DNA of 21,818 bases, from positions 10,054 to 31,871 of IMG/VR virus record IMGVR_UViG_3300000557_000012, one strand, 5' to 3'. The notes under the pieces were generated by a model. It ran no database searches. It was not told where the DNA came from and saw only the letters and a list, made by a program, of their open reading frames with translations. Origin of the DNA: a virus. Position 1 is the first letter of the stretch. The number at the start of each line of letters is the position of its first letter. A program made the position numbers and the translations under genes. Shown here one piece after another: positions 1 through 21,792 of this stretch.

Positions 1-1167
1 ATCCAGGAACTGATCGATCATACATCGGTCAAAGGAAACCGCACTCAGCGGGAGGAGTTCCTGGGTGGGCTCCAGGCACAATCTGAGTTCTGCTTACTGC
101 TCAACTACGCACAGATGCGGATCCACGGGGACGCACTCGCCTCGTTGGAGCCGCATCTGTTCGTAGCAGATGAAGCACACCGGATAAAGAATGCGCGAGC
201 AGAACAGAGCAAGCAGGCTCACCGGATAGCCAAGGCATCTGAGTTTGTCTGGCTCCTTACTGGAACTCCAGTGCGTACTGACTACGATGATTACTTCTCG
301 CAGCTGCGCACTGTGGACCATGTTCGGTTCACCGGATACTTCAACTTCCTCAATATCTATCTACACCATATCCCCAATATCTGGGGAGGTATAGATATTT
401 TAGGGGTGAAGGACAGAGAAAGATTCAATCGAATGTTAAGTACGTATGTATTTCGGAAAACAAAGGATGAAGTACTTGAGAATCTGCCCAAAAAGGTGTA
501 TAATGAGTATCCACTCGCGATGGAGGAGGAGCAGCAAGAAGCTTACGACCAAATGCTCAAGGAGTTCAGGTTGTACTTGGAGCAGGAGGAATATCCGGAC
601 GTGCTGTATGCAAAGGAAACCATCAGTCAACTCACACGTCTACGACAGATTGCACTTAACCCTGCCATTGTCGGAGGTGCAGACTCCAGCGGCAAAGAGC
701 GAGGGTTGATTGATCTGTTGGAGGACCTCGAAGGTCAGTTCCTGGTGTTTGCTACCTACCGTGATGCAATCCACAGGGTGCAGAAGATTCTGGAGGAGCG
801 GGATGTCTCCTGTGGAACAATTCTTGGTGGCATGAGCACCTCAGATCTGACCCAGACTATTGACCAATTTGAACGGGGGGATCTGCAGGCACTGGCTGGA
901 ACCATTGATGCCATGGGTGAGGGCATCGATCAGCCACAGGCCCAGACAGCAATCTTCCTGGATAAATCATGGACTCCTGCAGTCAACGAGCAGGCAGAGG
1001 ATCGCATACACCGACCAGGAGTCACAGCATCCCCAACCATCATCAATCTGTACCATCCGGATAGTATAGATGAACACATCCGTATGGTCTGCCAACGCAA
1101 GGAGCATATTGCAGACTCCACCATCGGTCAGGTGGAGACTGTACGATCCATGATGCAGGCTTGGTGA
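1..1167 (+). CDS. SNF2-family DNA helicase/translocase, C-terminal part (5' end outside window)
   Basis: The reading frame is open from base 1, so this is the last 388 codons of a longer gene. Numbering from the first in-window codon, the Walker B box DEAH is at residues 57-60 and the motif III box LLTGTP ends at residue 90. The second RecA lobe shows FLVFATYRDA (motif IV region), AMGEGIDQPQA (motif V) and QAEDRIHRPG (motif VI, from residue 331). This order and the QAEDRIHR box are typical of SNF2/RapA-type ATPases, which translocate on double-stranded DNA and remodel protein-DNA or branched structures. The Walker A half lies upstream of the window. It heads a replication and recombination cluster, so a role in fork remodelling or strand exchange is plausible but inferred. 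Family assignment is firm; the substrate is unknown. Confidence 0.93.
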   Translation: MQELIDHTSVKGNRTQREEFLGGLQAQSEFCLLLNYAQMRIHGDALASLEPHLFVADEAHRIKNARAEQSKQAHRIAKASEFVWLLTGTPVRTDYDDYFSQLRTVDHVRFTGYFNFLNIYLHHIPNIWGGIDILGVKDRERFNRMLSTYVFRKTKDEVLENLPKKVYNEYPLAMEEEQQEAYDQMLKEFRLYLEQEEYPDVLYAKETISQLTRLRQIALNPAIVGGADSSGKERGLIDLLEDLEGQFLVFATYRDAIHRVQKILEERDVSCGTILGGMSTSDLTQTIDQFERGDLQALAGTIDAMGEGIDQPQAQTAIFLDKSWTPAVNEQAEDRIHRPGVTASPTIINLYHPDSIDEHIRMVCQRKEHIADSTIGQVETVRSMMQAW

Positions 1168-2273: not shown

Positions 2274-3134
2274 ATGAAGTCAATCAGTGTGTCGAGAATG
2301 AGAACCACATTACTCTGTCCCCGCAAGGCCTACTGGAGATATGAGAAAGGTTTTGTGGATCCACTCACGACGCCACAGCTTCTGGGGTTGGCCTTTCACC
2401 GAGGGATACAGCATCGAGATCATCGCCCAGCAGTGGATCTCATTCAGCAGCAGGAGGTTCATTCACAGGAGGAACAGGATGAACAGACCATCCAGGTGCA
2501 CACCATTCGAGCAATGATCACAGGTGCACTGGAGCACTGGCGTATGGATTGGGTGCAGGAGTATTGTGAACTTCCATTCAGTGTTCCTCTGTACAATCCA
2601 GATACGGGGCATCCATCCAGAACCTACTACTTGACGGGACGGGTAGATGAGGTGGTGCAGGATGGGAGTGGGTACTGGTGGCTTAATGAATACAAGACCT
2701 CCTCCCAGAAACCCAACAAGGACCTGTCTTACACACTACCTGTGGACACTCAACTCTCACTGTATTTCTATGTTATACAGAAAGAGTTGGGAGTAAACAT
2801 CAGGGGCATCAACTATCGACTGGCAAAGAAACCTGGAATCCGACAGAAGCAGAACGAGACCAAAGCAGAATTCGGTACACGGGTACTTGAGGAATACCAG
2901 GAGAAACCAGAGAAGTATTTCTTTGAGATTCAAGTCCCTCGTGATCCGAAAGACATCGAGCGACTCCAGCGCAACATGTGGGAATTCTCCAAGATGTACC
3001 ACTTTCTCAGAACCAATGATATGTGGCCCATGGATACCAATGCCTGCTCTCACTGGGGGAGAACGTGCTCCTACATGCCGCTGTGTAGAGAAGAAGAAGA
3101 CGCAGAATACTTGTATCAAGTGGAGGAGAGGTGA
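2274..3134 (+). CDS. Cas4/RecB-like PD-(D/E)XK nuclease with probable 4Fe-4S cluster
   Basis: The 286-residue protein carries the nuclease core in order: LGLAFHRG with H42, GRVDEVV with D125, NEYKTS with E139-x-K141, and DTQLSLYFY as the Gln/Tyr motif. C15 (LCPRKAYW) and the C-terminal trio C258, C265 and C271 match the one-plus-three cysteine arrangement that binds a 4Fe-4S cluster in Cas4 and AddB nucleases. Such enzymes resect DNA ends or cut single-stranded DNA. The start follows AAGGGAGGAGAG. It sits just upstream of a Sak4-like ATPase and a single-strand-binding protein, so a role in recombination or end processing is likely. The Cas4 likeness does not imply CRISPR: no array or other cas gene is present. 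Confidence 0.9.
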   Translation: MKSISVSRMRTTLLCPRKAYWRYEKGFVDPLTTPQLLGLAFHRGIQHRDHRPAVDLIQQQEVHSQEEQDEQTIQVHTIRAMITGALEHWRMDWVQEYCELPFSVPLYNPDTGHPSRTYYLTGRVDEVVQDGSGYWWLNEYKTSSQKPNKDLSYTLPVDTQLSLYFYVIQKELGVNIRGINYRLAKKPGIRQKQNETKAEFGTRVLEEYQEKPEKYFFEIQVPRDPKDIERLQRNMWEFSKMYHFLRTNDMWPMDTNACSHWGRTCSYMPLCREEEDAEYLYQVEER

Positions 3135-3140
3135 TGCCGT

Positions 3141-3872
3141 GTGGCACTACCTACTGAAAAGACTGGTGGCTCAACTGACATCAGAGATTACACACTCCTG
3201 GCACATGGGGTACCCAAGGTGGGGAAGACTACTTTCTTCTCTAGATTTGACGAAGTGTTATTCTTGCTCACCAACCCAGCGCCAGAAGCACTGCAGATGT
3301 ACCAGATCCCCATAGGAAAGTGGGAGGACTTCCTCTTAGCAGGGCAGGCACTAGAGCAGGAAAAGCACGAGTTCAAGATGGTTGTTATTGATACCTTCGA
3401 GACGTTGGCGAGCATGTGCTCGGATTACGTCTTACAAAAGGAAAACCAGAAAGTGCCTCAGAGTATTACACATGAAGGGGACATAGATTTTGGTAAAGGC
3501 TGGGATATGGTGCAGGCGGAATTGATGCGTAAGATGTCCCGGCTGGCTGCCAATGACTTCGGTGTTGTGCTTATCTGCCACACTGATCTCAAGGAAATCA
3601 GTACACCGAATGGCCGCATGAACAAATATGTGCCCCGCTTGCAGAAGAGACCTAAACAGGTAGCTGATGCACTGGTCAGTCACATCCTGTACTTCGAGGT
3701 GTCCGAGGACAGCGAGGACAACCAGGTTCGTCAGATACGTACTCGCGCCTCCGAGATGTGGGAGGCTGGAGTACGTACACCTGAAGGCAAGGAGCTACCA
3801 GACCCTCTGCCGATGGACATAGGAACATTTCTGGAGGCGTTTGAGGAAGTATTTGGAGAGGAGAATGACTGA
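3141..3872 (+). CDS. Sak4-like RecA-fold ATPase (single-strand annealing or recombination protein)
   Basis: This starts at GTG; it is the only possible start, because an in-frame stop (TGA 3132-3134) lies just upstream. GGAGGAG at 3122-3128 is the ribosome binding site. The 243-residue protein has Walker A GVPKVGKTT at residues 23-31, Walker B FKMVVIDT ending at D84-T85, and a VVLICHTD strand typical of the AAA_24/Sak4 group of phage RecA-like ATPases. Sak4 proteins are thought to help anneal or exchange strands together with a phage single-strand-binding protein. The next gene is such a protein and overlaps this one by a single base, which supports the assignment. An alternative reading is a more general RecA-like helper ATPase. 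Confidence 0.88.
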   Translation: MALPTEKTGGSTDIRDYTLLAHGVPKVGKTTFFSRFDEVLFLLTNPAPEALQMYQIPIGKWEDFLLAGQALEQEKHEFKMVVIDTFETLASMCSDYVLQKENQKVPQSITHEGDIDFGKGWDMVQAELMRKMSRLAANDFGVVLICHTDLKEISTPNGRMNKYVPRLQKRPKQVADALVSHILYFEVSEDSEDNQVRQIRTRASEMWEAGVRTPEGKELPDPLPMDIGTFLEAFEEVFGEEND

Positions 3873-4429
3873 TGACAGATCGTTATATTGACATGACAAA
3901 TCAGAACGAACAGGGCTTTACTGTCCTGCCCGCAGGTCGTTACATCAGTGAAATCACTGGCTGGCAGGAACATGTCAAAAAGAACAACAACGAGGTTCAT
4001 TGGATCGATCTACGGATCATGGATGGAGACTTCGAGGGCGAGACACTCCGTTATTTTCAAACCATTACGGAGCAGCCCCGCTCATTGGGTTTCTTCTCCC
4101 GGATGATCCGCGATCTTGCACTCATCTCTGAAGAGGATCGAACACCAGAAGGACAGCTGGGCTTCAAGCTACAGTATGGTCCAGATCTGGAAGTTGATCG
4201 GAGTGATGAGACAAAAGTACGTGACGTCATAGCTGTACTACCCAATGGAGATGAGGACGAGGCACGCAAGGTAATCGGATGCCAGTGTGTTGCTGTAGTG
4301 GAACAGACCACAGAAGAGCGAAAGGGACATCCCCAGGAAGGGAAGACAATACACCAAGTTGCTTTCCTTAATGCCTACGATGGGTCCGGTCCGGAGACCA
4401 CATCGGGCGACGATCGAACCTGGATATAA
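3872..4429 (+). CDS. DUF669-like single-stranded DNA-binding protein
   Basis: The 185-residue protein resembles the DUF669 group of phage proteins, taken to be OB-fold single-strand binders. It has an N-terminal PAGRYISEITG strand pair, a WIDLRIMDGDFEGE segment and a later KVIGCQCVAVVEQ strand followed by a flexible, partly acidic tail ending in GDDRTWI. The ATG overlaps the last base of the Sak4-like stop codon, indicating coupled translation. Sak4 with DUF669 is a frequent phage pair. Its likely job is to coat single strands during replication and recruit the ATPase. The assignment rests on pattern and neighbourhood rather than on a catalytic motif. Confidence 0.75.
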   Translation: MTDRYIDMTNQNEQGFTVLPAGRYISEITGWQEHVKKNNNEVHWIDLRIMDGDFEGETLRYFQTITEQPRSLGFFSRMIRDLALISEEDRTPEGQLGFKLQYGPDLEVDRSDETKVRDVIAVLPNGDEDEARKVIGCQCVAVVEQTTEERKGHPQEGKTIHQVAFLNAYDGSGPETTSGDDRTWI

Positions 4430-4476: not shown

Positions 4477-6420
4477 ATGGAAAGAAGTTTCTTTGAGAGA
4501 GTCTGGGGCGAACAAGAGGGGTGGGCTATTATCGCCCGCGTCCAGCACAGGGACGATCGGGATGATGAATACCATCAGCGGACCTACCGCTATCCGGACA
4601 ACCTGGACCTTTTGATTGAGGATCTGCAGAGCTGGAATGTATGGGCTTCTGTCTACTTTGGTCCCCTCATTTTTCCAGAGGGGAAGCGAGACAAGAATCT
4701 CGTTGGAGAGGTTCCTCTCGTATGGGTGGACAAGGATAGTGGGGGAACAGAGGAACTAGATCCACGACCCACTATCTGCTGGCAGACCTCAAAAGGAAAA
4801 TATCAAGCGTTCTGGTTGCTGCGGGAATCCGTAAGCGCCCGAGATGCAGAGCATCTAAATCGATACTTGTGCCACAAGACCAATTCAGACCCCGGCTCGC
4901 GGGATCTGGTACATATGCTTCGGGTGCCGGGCAGTCTCAACCATAAATACGACCCGGTACAGGAGGGTGTGCTCCTGTGGGAAAACGGCCCGACATATGA
5001 CGCCGAGGATCTGGCACCCGGGGATGCAGACCTTGAGGATCTCAAAGAGGAACGAGTATCTGAGGCAGAGGTACCAGATCTACCCGAGGATCTACCATAC
5101 TATCATGAGGTTATTACCCGCTGGGGTAGTTCTATCCCTTCGGGTGTGTGGGAACTGTTGAATCGGAGACCTGAACCAGAGGACGATCGATCCAGGTATT
5201 TGTGGAAGATAGAGCGGATGTTGTTGGAGGCCAAGATTCCCGTCGAGGATGTCTACGTTATCGTTCGGGAATCGACATGGAACAAGTACCGACAGGATAA
5301 ACGAGATGACCATGAACTCTGGGAGGAAGTCTGGAAGTCATTCTACAAGGACGCAGACCCGGGTCAGGAGAGTCGAGGGTCCAAGTTCAATTGGCTGTCC
5401 TTCAGTGAACTACTTGCAGTGGAGTATCGTCCTGAGTGGATGGTGGAGGGCATCTGGATTGATGAAGCAGTGGGTTGGATCGCTGGAGTAGGGAAGTCCT
5501 ACAAATCTGTGATAGCACTGGACTTAGCACTGTCCATTTCTTCGGGTGAGCCATTCCTTGGAGAGTATGAGGTAAACAGGCCCGGTCCAGTAATCATGGT
5601 CATGGAGGAAGACCCCGACTGGAGAGTGTCCCACAGAATCGAGGGTATGGCACTCCAGAAAGGACTCATCGACATCAAGCGTGAGGGAGACATGTTCCTT
5701 CTACCACAGCAGCCAGACCTACCACTGGTGGTCTCAACTGGTGCAGGGTTCACCTTCAACGACAGTGACTTCATCGAGGAGCTGGAGCAGATGCTTTATG
5801 AGGTCCGCCCCCGCATATTGATTCTGGACCCCTGGTTTATGATGACCGGGGGCATAGATGAGTTCAAGTCGGGGGAGGTTGTAGAAGTCCTGAGACTGCT
5901 GAAGCTATGGCGAGAAAAATACCACTGCTCCATCTGTGTGGTGCACCACTACAGAAAGGGCAAAGGCAGCCCGCACGAGCTGCTGTATGGCTCCCACGCC
6001 TTCTATGGGTGGAGTGAAAACAACATGTTCATATCCAGAGACAAGACAGGTAATCTCGTCAATGTGGTTCGGGACGTCAAAGATGCTTCACAGGAGGAAG
6101 TTCCACCATTTATGGTACGTTTCCGCAGCATTGGTGATGTGTACGACATCAGTATGCGGGACAGTACGGGAGATGCTGGGATGGACAAGATACTGGCCTG
6201 TCTCCGCACCCTGGAGATCGGTGCTGGCATGACCAAGGATGATCTCACTGAGACTACCGAACTCAATGAAAAGACAGTCCGTCTTAGGCTGAAAGAGCTT
6301 CACGAGCAGGACAAGATTGTGCTGGAACGGCGAGGTCAGGGCGGTAAACTGGTGGCTGTAACCCAACCAGCTCTATATACACCAGAGGGGGTGGACCTGA
6401 GTGACTTGCTCAACGACTAA
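4477..6420 (+). CDS. Fused RepB-like primase and RepA-like hexameric helicase
   Basis: The 647-residue protein joins two replication enzymes. The N-terminal part (about 1-200) looks like the RepB/archaeo-eukaryotic primase superfamily: VYFGPLIF, then WVDKD with D85 and D87 as likely metal ligands, TSKGKYQAFW, and LRVPGSLNHK. The middle is an AAA_25 RepA-like ATPase: Walker A GVGKSYKS at 337-344 (the KSYKS form is common in this group), MVMEEDP, Walker B LILDPW with D451, VVHHYRKGKG with H490-H491, and YGSHAFYGWSEN. The last 80 residues look like a winged helix (TTELNEKTVRLRLKEL). It would synthesise primers and unwind the fork. A 13-bp hairpin precedes the start, and the 3' end overlaps the polymerase gene by 20 bases. 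Confidence 0.88.
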   Translation: MERSFFERVWGEQEGWAIIARVQHRDDRDDEYHQRTYRYPDNLDLLIEDLQSWNVWASVYFGPLIFPEGKRDKNLVGEVPLVWVDKDSGGTEELDPRPTICWQTSKGKYQAFWLLRESVSARDAEHLNRYLCHKTNSDPGSRDLVHMLRVPGSLNHKYDPVQEGVLLWENGPTYDAEDLAPGDADLEDLKEERVSEAEVPDLPEDLPYYHEVITRWGSSIPSGVWELLNRRPEPEDDRSRYLWKIERMLLEAKIPVEDVYVIVRESTWNKYRQDKRDDHELWEEVWKSFYKDADPGQESRGSKFNWLSFSELLAVEYRPEWMVEGIWIDEAVGWIAGVGKSYKSVIALDLALSISSGEPFLGEYEVNRPGPVIMVMEEDPDWRVSHRIEGMALQKGLIDIKREGDMFLLPQQPDLPLVVSTGAGFTFNDSDFIEELEQMLYEVRPRILILDPWFMMTGGIDEFKSGEVVEVLRLLKLWREKYHCSICVVHHYRKGKGSPHELLYGSHAFYGWSENNMFISRDKTGNLVNVVRDVKDASQEEVPPFMVRFRSIGDVYDISMRDSTGDAGMDKILACLRTLEIGAGMTKDDLTETTELNEKTVRLRLKELHEQDKIVLERRGQGGKLVAVTQPALYTPEGVDLSDLLND

Positions 6421-8791
6421 TTGTGAGGACTGTACTCTGGAAGGGCCGAGAGTATACGGTGAGGGAGCATCGGATGCTGACATCATGCTGGTGGGCGAAG
6501 CTCCCGGTCGTAATGAGATAGCCAGCCTACGTCCATTCGTTGGACGTGCGGGCGAGATTCTGGATCGAACATTGGAACTCCTTAATCTCGACAGGGAGGA
6601 GTGCTACATCACTAACTTGTGTCTGTGTCGTCCTCCTGAGAACAGGGATCCGCACGTCGCTGAGATCGAAGCGTGCTGGCTCCGACTTGTGGAGGAGATA
6701 CGCTCGGTGAAGCCAAAAATACTTGTCGCCCTGGGGAGGATACCTGCCCGGGTGCTGTTTCGAGACAAGCGCAGGTTCACCTTTACTCGTGGGAAGCCAC
6801 AGATTTCAGTGGTAGACAACATCACCGGGTTGGGTACATTCCACCCTGCTGCCCTGCTGCATCCAAAGGGCGACCTACGATTCCTGGAGTACTGGAAAGA
6901 CATGAGGAAGATGGCTCGAATGTTCAGAGGAGGATACAATCCAACAAAGGCAGAGACAGATGTACTGGTCGTCGATAATGTTAATGTGAACAGAGTAGTC
7001 AATCGAATCCATCAGGATGCAGAGGTCATTGCCTACGACTGGGAGACCACAGGACTCAATCCAGAGACAGATGAGGGCTTTTGCCTCGGCATGTCGTGGC
7101 GACCCAAGACAGCAGTGATCTGGCCTATGGATATGCTGGAAGCACACCACACCCTCGTACAGGAAATCTTCGCCTCAGAGAATATAGAGTTCAGCGCGTT
7201 TAACGCCTCGTTCGATGCCATGTTCAATGAGGCATACAACTTGGAGGGCCGGGCAGAGTACGACCCGCGCTTGATGCACAACGCACTGGATGAAAGACCA
7301 CAGGTGCGCACGTTGGAGCGTCTCCTGTGTGAGGACCTGGATTGGGAACCATACGAGACAGACATGCTGGACAAGTATGAGATCTCCAAGGATGAGATGA
7401 TCGAACGCATCCCATCAGACACAATCTATAGATACTGCGGCGTAGACTGCGACGGTACCCTACAACTAACGCTGAAGTACAGAGAGAAAATACAGGAGGA
7501 GAACCCCAAGTTGATGTTACTGGTTCAGGAGCACCTGATCCCTGTGGACTTCATGTTGAGGGATGTCCAACATCGGGGGATCTTTGTTGACCAAGATGCA
7601 CTCCAGCAGGTTCAGACTGAGTTGGAGGTAGATCTGCAGGAGATGCGGGAGCAGATGCGGGAGGAATTGGGCGCTCCTGGCTACAATCCCAACTCACATC
7701 CTCAGACACAAGAGGCAGTCTGGGACATGCTGGGCTTTCCAGAACCAGATCTCTATGGTAGAAAGGACAGATCCACAGACGGGGAGACACTCAAGTATCT
7801 GCAGGAAAATTACGACTGTCGTTTCATCGATCTTCTTGCTGAGTATCGGGGTAAGTTTACCCTGTACTCCCGATACATCAGCAATATGTGGGGACACTTG
7901 GATGACGAGGGTCGTGTACACCCACGCTTCAAGATTGATGGAGCAGAGACTGGACGCATATCAGCAGTCGCACCACCGATTCAGCAGATTCCCAAGACAA
8001 AGACTATGCGGTCCATGTTTTGTGCCACTCCGGGGTGGACCATGATTCAGGCAGACTACTCGCAGGTAGAAATGAGGGTGGCTGCACTGTATAGTGACGA
8101 GGAGTTCCTCCAGGACATCTTTCGGGAGGGACTGGATTTCCACTCCACCATGGCAGTGATGGCCCAGGGCAATCTGCCGGAGGATACCGCGCTCAAAGAA
8201 TATATCCGAACAGATGAATTTCTACAGAAAGTAGAGACCATCACAACTAACGAGAGAGACGCAGCCAAAGCGATCTCGTTTGGTCTGCTGTATGGTATGG
8301 GCGATGACAAACTGGCATTGAGTACAGGACTCCCGCCGGCAGAGTCAAGAGGCTTTGTGCACAACTACATGGCAGCAATGCCAAAACTGCAGACTTGGAT
8401 CCAGAGAATGCAGTCAGCAGTGCAAAACTATCATTACGTGGAGTCCATCAATAGCAGACGTCGAAGGTTCCCTTTTGTGACAGAGAGTAACCTCGGTGAT
8501 CTACAGAGAGAGGCCGTAAACAGTCCTATACAGGGCTATGCCAGCGATCTGTTGTTGGATGCAGCGAAGCGAATGCACAAAACATTTAAGGAGAAGTACC
8601 CAGAACAGGCGCATATTATTATTCTCATCCACGACGAGGTTGTGGTTGAATGTACAAAGGAACTGACAGAAGAGGTTGTTGCATTAATGAAACAAACGAT
8701 GGAGAGTGTGCCGGTAGAGACAGACATTCCATTCCCAGCAGACTTTAAAGTTGGCCCAAGCTGGGGCGAAGGAGAGGAGATTGTAATATGA
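6401..8791 (+). CDS. Family 4 uracil-DNA glycosylase fused to family A DNA polymerase with 3'-5' exonuclease
   Basis: This starts at GTG, after AGGGGGTGG, inside the end of the primase-helicase gene. Residues 1-175 are a family 4 uracil-DNA glycosylase: GEAPGRNE (32-39), PFVGRAG, CRPPENRDP and FHPAALL with H148. C8, C11, C76 and C92 have the C-x2-C and C-x15-C spacing of the 4Fe-4S cluster. Residues 188-365 are a DEDDy exonuclease: D213 and E215 (DWETTG), N268 and D272, Y345 and D349. The rest is the polymerase: motif A DYSQVEMR with D552, motif B R619, K623 and F627 (Phe at the E. coli 762 position), motif C HDEVVVE with D745. All catalytic residues are present; there is no 5'-3' exonuclease domain. 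It should replicate the genome and may excise or sense uracil. Confidence 0.95.
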   Translation: MTCSTTNCEDCTLEGPRVYGEGASDADIMLVGEAPGRNEIASLRPFVGRAGEILDRTLELLNLDREECYITNLCLCRPPENRDPHVAEIEACWLRLVEEIRSVKPKILVALGRIPARVLFRDKRRFTFTRGKPQISVVDNITGLGTFHPAALLHPKGDLRFLEYWKDMRKMARMFRGGYNPTKAETDVLVVDNVNVNRVVNRIHQDAEVIAYDWETTGLNPETDEGFCLGMSWRPKTAVIWPMDMLEAHHTLVQEIFASENIEFSAFNASFDAMFNEAYNLEGRAEYDPRLMHNALDERPQVRTLERLLCEDLDWEPYETDMLDKYEISKDEMIERIPSDTIYRYCGVDCDGTLQLTLKYREKIQEENPKLMLLVQEHLIPVDFMLRDVQHRGIFVDQDALQQVQTELEVDLQEMREQMREELGAPGYNPNSHPQTQEAVWDMLGFPEPDLYGRKDRSTDGETLKYLQENYDCRFIDLLAEYRGKFTLYSRYISNMWGHLDDEGRVHPRFKIDGAETGRISAVAPPIQQIPKTKTMRSMFCATPGWTMIQADYSQVEMRVAALYSDEEFLQDIFREGLDFHSTMAVMAQGNLPEDTALKEYIRTDEFLQKVETITTNERDAAKAISFGLLYGMGDDKLALSTGLPPAESRGFVHNYMAAMPKLQTWIQRMQSAVQNYHYVESINSRRRRFPFVTESNLGDLQREAVNSPIQGYASDLLLDAAKRMHKTFKEKYPEQAHIIILIHDEVVVECTKELTEEVVALMKQTMESVPVETDIPFPADFKVGPSWGEGEEIVI

Positions 8792-9747: not shown

Positions 9748-9754
9748 GGGGTTA

Positions 9755-10336
9755 ATGAGAGTAGGAATTACAGGGGCACATGGTACAGGAAAGACCACAC
9801 TGACTGAGGCACTGGCAGAAGAACTCGACTTCTGGTCAATACAGGAGGTGGCTCGTAACATCTTGTGGGAAGCTGGGATTGAGGACTGTGACTATCTGGA
9901 GCGTAATCCAGAGTTTGCCAGCAAGATGCAGTGGAGAATCCTCTGGGCGCAGATCGAGGCGGAGGAAAAAGCGGACGCTATGTCCGAGAATGGTTACATC
10001 TCTGACCGCACGCCGCTGGACTTTCTGGCTTACTGGTATCTGTACAAATGTAACAAAGTTACCCTGCCTTTTATGACAGAGGAGTTTGCCAACATCTGCA
10101 TCAAGACATCCCGTCAATACGATCTCATCGTATTCACACGCCCTGAGTTTGAGTATGACTCCACAGATCCATTCAGATTAAGCAATCCAAAGACGCAAAC
10201 CGTTGTAGACAACACATTGGGAGGACTACTGGAGAGTGTGAACGATTCCATCCCTGTAGTGGAGGTACATGGGTCCACAGAAGCGAGGGTAAACTATATC
10301 TTGGCAAAGGTATCCATGGAAAACTTAGCAAACTGA
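9755..10336 (+). CDS. P-loop NTPase/kinase of AAA_28 (NadR-like) type
   Basis: The 193-residue protein begins MRVGITGAHGTGKTTL, with Walker A at residues 7-15 (GAHGTGKTT). SDRTPLDFLAYW is the D-R-x-x-x-D element seen in AAA_28/NadR-like and nucleoside or nucleotide kinase proteins, and YDLIVFTRPE forms a later core strand. It probably phosphorylates a small substrate, such as a nucleotide or nucleotide precursor, but the substrate cannot be read from the sequence. The ATG at 9755 follows GGGGAGTGAGGGG; a longer in-frame opening from 9554 overlaps the previous gene and is rejected. It is the last gene of the + strand cluster, ahead of the convergent terminator. Confidence 0.85.
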   Translation: MRVGITGAHGTGKTTLTEALAEELDFWSIQEVARNILWEAGIEDCDYLERNPEFASKMQWRILWAQIEAEEKADAMSENGYISDRTPLDFLAYWYLYKCNKVTLPFMTEEFANICIKTSRQYDLIVFTRPEFEYDSTDPFRLSNPKTQTVVDNTLGGLLESVNDSIPVVEVHGSTEARVNYILAKVSMENLAN

Positions 10337-16613: not shown

Positions 16614-16782
16614 CTGGTTCCACCTCCTCTATCTGCTGCACTGCTTCCTCATACATTGATTCCAGAAAGGCTGCTCGGGCTGAATCCAGCATGTGGACAA
16701 TGGTCCACGCCGGAAGCCCCGAGGAAGCACATACCTGAAGAATCTGTTGCCGAACCTCTACAGCTCTCTTGTCTGTTCTCAC
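16591..16782 (-). CDS. Small hypothetical protein between fibre and internal virion genes (63 aa)
   Basis: This starts at GTG, whose last bases overlap the fibre-gene stop codon (GTGA), and runs 23 bases into the next gene. The translation has a helical core (RAVEVRQQILQV, then IVHMLDSARAAFLESM) and an acidic tail (IEEVEPDAEEG). The ribosome binding site is weak (GGATCTGGA), which fits coupled translation. It fills the only gap in the - strand block, so it is probably real. It is too short to be a T7 gp14-like protein of the usual size; the function is unknown. Confidence 0.68.
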   Translation of the reverse strand: MRTDKRAVEVRQQILQVCASSGLPAWTIVHMLDSARAAFLESMYEEAVQQIEEVEPDAEEGSS

Positions 16783-17648
16783 TCCAGATCCACCGTCCCC
16801 TGTGATGTGCCATCCTTGAATACCTCTAAGGTACTATTATATACCTGAAGTGTGTACTGGGTGCCCCGATCCGCGCCCAGTACGACGTACCTTCCATCCT
16901 GTGCAGTTATATCTCCATCTACCTCCACATCGCCATCGGGAACATGTATGCCATCGGGAACATGAAGTCTGGTTCCCAACCACATAGAGCTTCCCGCACC
17001 TGACTGGAAGTACAGATTACTGGGCGGCTCGATCTCGATGCTGCCGTAACCCCCAAAGTCAATCCCGTCCCCCAGCGTGTTGGAGGCCATATAGATGTTC
17101 TCCCCTACCGTCAGGTCGGTATCCACATCGATGGTGACGCCACTAAGAGTACCCGCCCGAATATTATCAGCAGTCAAAAGCTCTGTTTTGATTTTTCCCC
17201 CAATTATGATGGTCTCTCCCAGCATGGCTTTCTCAACCATATCTTCAAAGGCAAGAGAACCTGCATCTTCTTCGTCTAGCTTTCCTGTAGGATCATACCC
17301 TTCACCAAACAAGGTTCCACCATCTATGTGCAACATATTGGAGCGAATATATCCACCCTCAATTATGGTCTCTCCCAGCATGGCTTCCTCAACCATATCC
17401 TCGAATGCCATGTCTCCAATGTTAGCGAGAAAATGTATACCGATCCGTTCTCCTCTGTCTCCTCTGACAGCAACTTTATTGGCCTCTATTCTATCTACCT
17501 GACGAGTACCCACAGAACCGTCAGCCATGTGGACTCCCTCGATAGCCCCTGTTGCCAGGTGCTCTCCAGAGATATTACCCCTGACCAATCTATCCAGTAA
17601 TTGGAAGTTATAATTGACATCTTCCATATCTCGAACCTGACGTAGCAT
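16779..17648 (-). CDS. Tail fibre-like protein with 52-residue repeat
   Basis: The 289-residue protein has a short N-terminal helix region (MLRQVRDMEDVNYNFQLLD) followed by many Gly- and Ile-rich turns such as GETIIEGGYIRSN and ADNIRAGTLSGVTI, the pattern of phage fibre and tail-tip proteins with a beta-helix or collagen-like shaft. AFEDMVEEAMLGETII recurs 52 residues later as AFEDMVEKAMLGETII. The C terminus (YTLQVYNSTLEVFKDG) looks like a beta-sandwich tip. It lies between the nozzle gene and the internal virion genes, so it is probably the fibre or spike that contacts the host, possibly attached through its N terminus. It overlaps the nozzle stop by one base. Confidence 0.78.
   Translation of the reverse strand: MLRQVRDMEDVNYNFQLLDRLVRGNISGEHLATGAIEGVHMADGSVGTRQVDRIEANKVAVRGDRGERIGIHFLANIGDMAFEDMVEEAMLGETIIEGGYIRSNMLHIDGGTLFGEGYDPTGKLDEEDAGSLAFEDMVEKAMLGETIIIGGKIKTELLTADNIRAGTLSGVTIDVDTDLTVGENIYMASNTLGDGIDFGGYGSIEIEPPSNLYFQSGAGSSMWLGTRLHVPDGIHVPDGDVEVDGDITAQDGRYVVLGADRGTQYTLQVYNSTLEVFKDGTSQGTVDLE
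17209..17408. repeat. Direct repeat in the fibre gene (44 bp, period 156 bp)
   Basis: The 44-base blocks at 17209-17252 and 17365-17408 begin ATGGTCTCTCCCAGCATGGC and differ at only a few positions. The 156-base period keeps the reading frame and equals 52 residues. It encodes the AFEDMVE repeat of the fibre protein and suggests an internal duplication of a shaft module. Confidence 0.85.
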
Positions 17649-20995: not shown

Positions 20996-21340
20996 TTATT
21001 CACCCACTTCCGGATTTCTAGGTAGAATGCCCAGACGACCCTGTAGAGCAACATAGTTGTCAACCATTACAGTTGCATCATAACCTATCACATCAAGAGA
21101 CTCAGTAGTTTCGGGAGAGAAATGGAACCTGACTTGGCCATCCGTTGGCTGACATACGATTTCTCCGGGTATCTCCAAAATAGAATTATCATCATCCCAA
21201 GTATAAGCTATCTTGAGACGAACATCCATATCTGTGAAATCATATGGATCACCCTGAGAATCGTGAAGTTGTACATATTGGGTAAATTTTGATCCTCGGT
21301 GTACTTTAATATCCAATCGGCTAGCCAATTCTTTACTCAT
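20996..21340 (-). CDS. Beta-rich virion protein, BppU-like N-terminal type (114 aa)
   Basis: The protein reads LDIKVHRGSKFTQYVQLHD, then GDPYDFTDMDVRLKIAYTW, and near the end YDATVMVDNYVALQGRLGI. This is the pattern of small phage beta-sandwich proteins related to the BppU N-terminal domain: a hydrophobic strand after a Gly, a D/G-P turn followed by the Asp-Phe/Leu-Thr motif, then a final strand pair with YDxxV. It has one cysteine and no membrane segment. The start overlaps the previous stop (ATGA). It lies upstream of the adaptor gene. It is probably a structural attachment or decoration protein; the role is not shown. Confidence 0.72.
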   Translation of the reverse strand: MSKELASRLDIKVHRGSKFTQYVQLHDSQGDPYDFTDMDVRLKIAYTWDDDNSILEIPGEIVCQPTDGQVRFHFSPETTESLDVIGYDATVMVDNYVALQGRLGILPRNPEVGE

Positions 21341-21792
21341 TCCTGTATCACTCCTTCTGTTTCTATCTCTTCTTCATCTCGAACTTCAGTAGTAAGTTCT
21401 GTATCCTCCCGAACTTCAGTAGTAAGTTCTGCATCCTCCCGAACCTGCAAATTCAACCACAGTGGGGCAGGTCTGCGTCGTTCCAGCAACAATGCCATTT
21501 CATGTCTGTAAGGTTCTTCTCCCCAGGAGTGAGATCGCCAGGAGAATATACCATTATAGCCAGACTCATATGCCAGAGCCAGAGACATCCTGTCTACAGC
21601 ACATCTTTCATAAAGTATCGGATTACCAAACTCTACCTCTGTCCATGTACCCAGTGGAGTAGGACCGGTTATATAATACAATAAATCATTTGTGTGGTAG
21701 ACAATCTGTGCTCTGTTATCCGGTCTGTGGAGTAGGAGAGGATTCTCTCCCAGATCATCTAACGTTTGTTCACCAATGAATGTTAGTTCCAC
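21337..21792 (-). CDS. Virion protein with C-terminal 10-residue tandem repeat (possibly 5'-truncated by the window)
   Basis: The GTG at 21792 is preceded by AGGGGGTAGAACTATT, a possible ribosome binding site, giving 151 residues. However, the frame stays open to the window edge (21818), so the true start may lie outside. The first 110 residues contain LLLHRPDNRAQIVYHTNDL, PLGTWTEVEFG and MSLALAYESGYNGIFSW, which read like blades of a BNR or sialidase-type beta-propeller. If so, only the end of a longer protein is present. The C terminus has VREDAELTTE, VREDTELTTE and VRDEEEIETE, three acidic 10-residue units. It is next to the tail genes, so it is probably a virion or host-contact protein. 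Confidence 0.62.
   Translation of the reverse strand: MELTFIGEQTLDDLGENPLLLHRPDNRAQIVYHTNDLLYYITGPTPLGTWTEVEFGNPILYERCAVDRMSLALAYESGYNGIFSWRSHSWGEEPYRHEMALLLERRRPAPLWLNLQVREDAELTTEVREDTELTTEVRDEEEIETEGVIQE
21381..21440. repeat. Tandem 30-bp repeat, two near-identical copies
   Basis: 21381-21410 and 21411-21440 are two copies of a 30-base unit beginning GAACTTCAGTAGTAAGTTCT with one difference between them (GTATCC versus GCATCC). A third, diverged copy (21351-21380) adjoins. They encode the VREDxELTTE repeat near the C terminus of the adjacent - strand gene. Repeat expansion is the likely origin. Confidence 0.85.

Follow-up and report, generated by a model that had tools for sequence, protein, structure and literature searches.

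A family 4 uracil-DNA glycosylase domain on a phage family A DNA polymerase

A single gene in a phage genome encodes a uracil-DNA glycosylase (UDG)-like domain, a 3'-5' exonuclease and a family A DNA polymerase (PolA) in one chain. The architecture itself was known already; what is new is this exact protein, in an under-described kind, and the interesting part is the clade around it, in which the UDG is mostly intact and catalytic loss has been repeated. Going by sequence and structure prediction, we lean slightly towards reading it as the polymerase that replicates the phage genome, bearing in cis a UDG capable of catalysis; this UDG would clear uracil from the template at the fork and would serve as a DNA-binding element as well. 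The gene lies in the window (the whole 21,818-nucleotide stretch analysed), which belongs to a virus record that is a 31,871-base fragment, and hence a partial genome.

The fusion gene, its domains and its surroundings

The gene is a single uninterrupted ORF of 796 aa with 0 internal stops, in agreement with the preliminary description of one polypeptide carrying a UDG and then an exonuclease-polymerase, and Pfam matches three domains in it in the order UDG, DNA_pol_A_exo1 and DNA_pol_A (Table 1). A PHROG match (phrog_17) covers both the UDG and the polymerase. The start codon is the GTG at 6401, which lies a few bases downstream of the purine-rich AGAGGGGGTGG, a possible ribosome-binding site; 20 bp are common to the 3' end of the primase-helicase gene and the start of the fusion gene, and the overlap with the next downstream gene is ATGA. 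A model of the full protein, which the preliminary description had proposed, was built with AlphaFold2 from a 45-sequence alignment (mean pLDDT 91.4, pTM 0.88), and the three domains are confidently packed in this predicted structure. A structure search with the model returned whole-length viral matches with TMq 0.75-0.81. Chimeric assembly is an unlikely source of the fusion, as separate contigs show the same order.

The assignment of the N-terminal region to the family 4 UDGs held up. NCBIfam UDG_fam4 (TIGR00758) gives 146 bits, passing the cut-off of 125.3, the Pfam UDG match spans residues 20-169 (1.1e-28), and the top PDB match for the N-terminal 189 aa is the UDGa of Thermus thermophilus (Tth; 1ui0, 6.4e-30). 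Cysteines C8, C11, C76 and C92, rightly named beforehand as those of the cluster, stand in the family spacing and align with the 1ui0 cysteines, and both active-site motifs are present, GEAPG at residues 32-36 and HPAAL at 148-152. Six of six pocket residues are present in the alignment, E41, E47, F54, N80, N89 and H155 of Tth UDGa corresponding to E33, E39, F46, N72, N81 and H148 here. Their roles in Tth UDGa have been measured by mutagenesis and kinetics, H155 and N89 affecting mainly the chemical step and N89A costing only ~6-9-fold (PMC5387724). By profile, cysteines, motifs and pocket residues the domain is a family 4 UDG (UDGa), and it probably holds a [4Fe-4S] cluster. UdgX, for which PMC10359453 gives an R-loop KRRIH and a motif A GEQPG as hallmarks, was rejected: TIGR03914 scores 94.2 vs 189.95 bits, GEAPG stands instead of GEQPG, and the sequence contains no KRRIH.

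The remainder of the chain is, by its domain matches and residues, a DEDDy exonuclease joined to a family A DNA polymerase, each with all its catalytic residues in place. Exonuclease residues D213, E215, D272, Y345 and D349 are invariant across the 45-sequence alignment, except Y345 at at least 90%, and polymerase residues D552 (motif A), K623, F627 and Y631 (O-helix) and D745 (motif C) are invariant or nearly so in the same alignment. An insertion of ~18 residues between motif A and the O-helix (window 8167-8226) is absent in the closest relatives. Two other polymerase identities were rejected, namely cellular DNA polymerase I (TIGR00593, 286 vs 600 bits, with a match limited to profile positions 332-888 and no 5'-nuclease domain) and the DpoZ aminoadenine polymerase (NF038380, 110 vs 500 bits). 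The preliminary description had judged both halves seemingly competent, which fits the intact catalytic residues, and none of the outcomes it named beforehand as speaking against it (a non-UDG profile, lost catalytic residues, two genes) occurred.

Table 1. Positions of the fusion gene, its domains and motifs, and neighbouring genes in the window.
Feature	Position	Strand	Basis
SNF2-type helicase (5' part in rest of record)	1..1167	+	Annotation of ORFs
PD-(D/E)XK (Cas4-like) nuclease	2274..3134	+	Annotation of ORFs
AAA_24 (Sak4-like) ATPase	3141..3872	+	Annotation of ORFs
SSB-like DUF669 protein, replication module	3872..4429	+	Annotation; synteny
Primase-helicase (RepB primase + AAA_25), immediately 5' of fusion gene	4477..6420	+	Annotation; syntenic in closest relatives
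AGAGGGGGTGG, purine-rich, possible ribosome-binding site	6384..6394	+	Suggested by the sequence
Fusion gene UDG-exonuclease-polymerase	6401..8791	+	Single open frame; Pfam and NCBIfam matches
Family 4 UDG domain, residues ~7-173	6419..6919	+	TIGR00758 146 bits; 1ui0 6.4e-30
CEDC, cluster cysteines C8 and C11	6422..6433	+	Alignment to 1ui0
Motif 1 GEAPG, residues 32-36, including E33	6494..6508	+	Alignment
N72/C76/N81/C92 region (NLCLCRPPENR...C)	6614..6676	+	Alignment to 1ui0; residue roles PMC5387724
Motif 2 HPAAL, residues 148-152, including H148	6842..6856	+	Alignment
DEDDy 3'-5' exonuclease domain, residues 202-364	7004..7492	+	Pfam DNA_pol_A_exo1 3.2e-10
Family A polymerase domain, residues 399-790	7595..8770	+	Pfam DNA_pol_A 1.3e-78
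AAA_28 / thymidylate-kinase-like nucleotide kinase, 3' of fusion gene	9749..10336	+	Annotation of ORFs

The fusion gene is a member of a replication module encoded on one strand, with the structural genes on the opposite strand. The ORFs scanned on the 31.9-kb fragment included none recognisable as a dUTPase, a thymidylate synthase or an AP endonuclease. Elsewhere in the window, a structural-type protein (16779-17648, minus strand) contains the segment AFEDMVE-AMLGETII-GG twice, and the protein at 21337-21792 (minus strand) carries short terminal repeats, TTEVRED-ELTTEVRDEEE. At the start of the record, ~2.2 kb (L002 1-2200) show no convincing coding ORF, whereas the rest is densely coding.

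Fused relatives and known systems

Among 50,697 phage records, 34 have a match that covers 80% or more of the protein, with identity below 60% in every case, and the UDG domain alone finds matches in 52; these 34 records, together with a fused majority in IMG/VR, rule out the idea of a unique fusion. Intact fusions stand in public records annotated merely as DNA polymerase (e.g., MW202455). A single-protein scan of IMG/VR for nearest relatives found none, and alignment queries were needed. Scanning for UDG motifs gave more than 600 stretches, and in the best 80 loci of that scan 46 of 81 UDG ORFs are single UDG-exonuclease-polymerase ORFs; conservation in that scan is biased by its own search patterns, and a polymerase-anchored set was preferred. 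With an exonuclease-polymerase-only query of IMG/VR, an N-terminal UDG was found on 75 of 79 non-truncated polymerase ORFs, a proportion that describes the clade of the window's polymerase and not all phage PolA, the set being the best 80 by similarity to that polymerase and the query alignment, built from fused proteins, possibly favouring nearest kin. The 60 distinct fusions of this set keep the four cysteines in 57 cases, the five active-site residues E33, E39, F46, N72 and H148 in 49, and all nine together in 48; of those 49, 32 have N81 as well, and the other 17, otherwise intact, lack its counterpart. Judged by these residues, intact UDGs are the rule in a large clade of phage polymerases, which revises the earlier emphasis on an intact family 4 version as exceptional.

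The closest relatives (IMG/VR, L103-L107) are 37-41% identical over the full length, have an intact UDG, are unannotated, and have the gene order SSB, primase-helicase, UDG-PolA in common with the window. A full-length relative with intact motifs (38% identity) also lies on a contig of a Nitriliruptoraceae metagenome-assembled genome (PWLR01000035.1, L182); as the sole genome contig available for host inference, its 3.3 kb are too little for naming a host.

Free-standing family 4 enzymes, namely 1ui0, the archaeal-type 4zbx and Thermotoga TM0511, have the four-cysteine layout, GE(A/G)PG, HP and the pocket residues in common with the window's UDG, but they are proteins of ~200 aa, whereas the window's UDG forms the N-terminal part of a polymerase chain. 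Among fused proteins, PaBG gp205 and the Lupandier-group DNA polymerase I have a UDG-like domain, a 3'-5' exonuclease and PolA in that order, and a role in repair was proposed (PMC7412058). The domain order of gp205 (L185 5605-8703) is that of the window's protein; its UDG-like domain, in contrast to the intact one here, lacks GEAPG, the cluster cysteines and HP, was missed by the UDG profile built in this analysis, and is unlikely to excise uracil because these elements are lost. The preliminary description had noted that the domain pairing is not wholly new, and the SPO1-type polymerases of Bacillus and Lysinibacillus phages do carry an N-terminal UDG-like domain on PolA, although a degraded one: LysYB1 has D, E, M, G and H at the five active-site positions, and SBSphiC has lost most cysteines and the HP histidine. 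In Thermus phage phiLo the polymerase (PDB 9qhs) is a UDG-PolA fusion of solved structure that keeps the cysteines and motifs, but it has 1175 aa and is distant from the window's 796-aa protein; neither for 9qhs nor for the intact fusion did the literature searched yield a paper. A UDG is also physically attached to a replicative polymerase in vaccinia D4-A20-E9, by analogy and not homology, since there a family 1 UNG, separate subunits and a family B polymerase are involved. In that holoenzyme, which contains the UNG D4, the attached UDG excises template uracil, polymerase stalling at template uracil has been reported, and the UNG active site of the related mpox enzyme was observed to contain an abasic site that came from template uracil (PMC11142717).

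Selection on the glycosylase domain

In a tree of 143 UDG rows the fused UDGs cluster strongly (8 label changes vs 32 in shuffles), and the window's UDG belongs, with support 96, to a set of 12 that are all fused; the tree was made quickly, its branches are long and its deep nodes are unsure. The active-site state changes ~7 times on it and the four-cysteine state 5 times. The active-site-degraded group of PMBT14 and the Serratia and Yersinia phages is nested next to ctfzr933, which is intact (support 89), and its degradation is therefore probably secondary. In PMBT14 (L005), Yersinia P744 (L006) and Serratia Opt-155 (L010) the degraded fusion immediately follows genes for dCMP deaminase and of thymidylate synthase type, one of these genes being annotated as pyrimidine hydroxymethylase synthase, which suggests an unusual thymine metabolism where excision has been lost in these phages. 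A link of the fusion to uracil-modified genomes, striking as it looks in these phages, was set aside as an explanation: thymidylate synthase, dUMP hydroxymethylase, dUTPase and dCMP deaminase genes were scored, each type lies near only 1-7 of 56 fused IMG/VR loci, and none was recognised among the ORFs scanned in the window's record. In two further fusions all four cysteines were lost together, in L062 (4863 onward) with the uracil-pocket residues kept and in L163 (4467-7094) with these also gone.

Between close pairs, omega is 0.025-0.16 for the UDG of intact copies vs 0.05-0.17 for the exonuclease-polymerase; the UDG domain is thus under purifying selection similar to that on the polymerase. 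As the conserved residues are retained under this selection and at a mean UDG identity of only ~36%, glycosylase activity of the window's UDG is likely.

Four contigs (L108, 4461-6734 and 6863-9208; L109; L110; L122) carry two tandem UDG-PolA genes in one phage, the UDG of the first copy having lost N72 and the HP histidine while that of the second is intact. Such losses bear on an alternative in which the UDG domain is mainly a structural element for DNA binding or processivity, like poxvirus D4, with any glycosylase activity incidental. In its favour, the active site was lost on the ~7 occasions counted above while the fusion, the fold and mostly the cysteines stayed, PaBG keeps only a motif-less remnant, the degraded tandem copies are still constrained (UDG omega 0.09-0.23), and divergent phage polymerases are among the whole-length fold matches of the model. 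However, the uracil pocket is kept in 49 of the 60 distinct fusions despite low identity, and the intact tandem copies have a lower UDG omega (0.025-0.064) than the degraded ones, with polymerase omegas alike in both, so that catalysis itself appears to be selected. As the sole or main function we therefore regard the structural role as rather unlikely, while a fold that has repeatedly outlasted the active site indicates that the domain has a second, non-catalytic role, one that the preliminary description had not considered.

A role at the replication fork

Excision or sensing of uracil at the fork, as suggested in the preliminary description, is plausible. On the favoured reading, in which excision and DNA binding are combined, the protein is the phage's replicative polymerase, with a family 4 UDG where cellular Pol I has its 5'-nuclease domain. 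Uracil arising from cytosine deamination or dUTP incorporation would be flipped out and excised from DNA at the polymerase, the template in front of the enzyme being the most likely substrate, and the resulting abasic site would stall the tethered polymerase, whose proofreading exonuclease could idle or back up. Host AP endonuclease, repair or recombination would then remove the lesion, and C-to-T mutations would not be fixed. The UDG domain probably also adds DNA binding or processivity, given that lineages without the active site still have the fold and, as a rule, the cluster cysteines, and this part would be kept once uracil removal is no longer needed. The excision model is supported by the single chain, the catalytic and cluster residues, the confidently packed model, the replication module and the fact that UDG and polymerase have long resided together under purifying selection, and vaccinia D4-A20-E9 is its nearest functional precedent. 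Against it stand the 17 otherwise intact relatives without N81 (although N89A has only a small cost in Tth UDGa), the failure to recognise a dUTPase, a thymidylate synthase or an AP endonuclease among the ORFs scanned, and uracil-metabolism genes that only occasionally adjoin fused relatives. Excision is in any case not essential to the architecture, because the active site is gone from several lineages that keep the fusion.

UDG is the first enzyme of base excision repair, and the gaps are filled by Pol I-type enzymes, so the protein could instead be a repair polymerase that couples excision and gap filling in cis and takes no part in bulk replication; tandem UDG-PolA genes at some loci could split replication and repair between them. 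This reading we consider improbable, as the gene lies in a replication module beside primase-helicase and SSB, no second polymerase was recognised among the ORFs scanned on the 31.9-kb fragment (a partial genome), and Pfam finds no AP lyase or endonuclease domain in the 796-aa chain. A pure uracil sensor, which would take template uracil into its pocket and halt the polymerase but not excise the base, as in archaeal family B polymerases, would suit an architecture in which a polymerase-attached pocket could read ahead but is very improbable with H148, E33 and the other catalytic residues intact, including those of the chemical step (Tth H155 and N89; PMC5387724).

If active, the fusion would be the simplest form of uracil surveillance at the fork, a single chain carrying out both base excision and DNA synthesis, and a uracil-erasing polymerase of this kind could be useful as a reagent. 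We give even weight to the broader proposal that this large, undescribed phage polymerase clade carries an active Fe-S UDG in cis for replication-coupled uracil surveillance and has repeatedly converted it to a non-catalytic accessory domain. The clade is a natural experiment, with catalytic and dead domains on the same polymerase scaffold, sometimes adjacent in one phage, and it lets an excision role be parted from a processivity role, a question that is equally open for the poxvirus polymerases.
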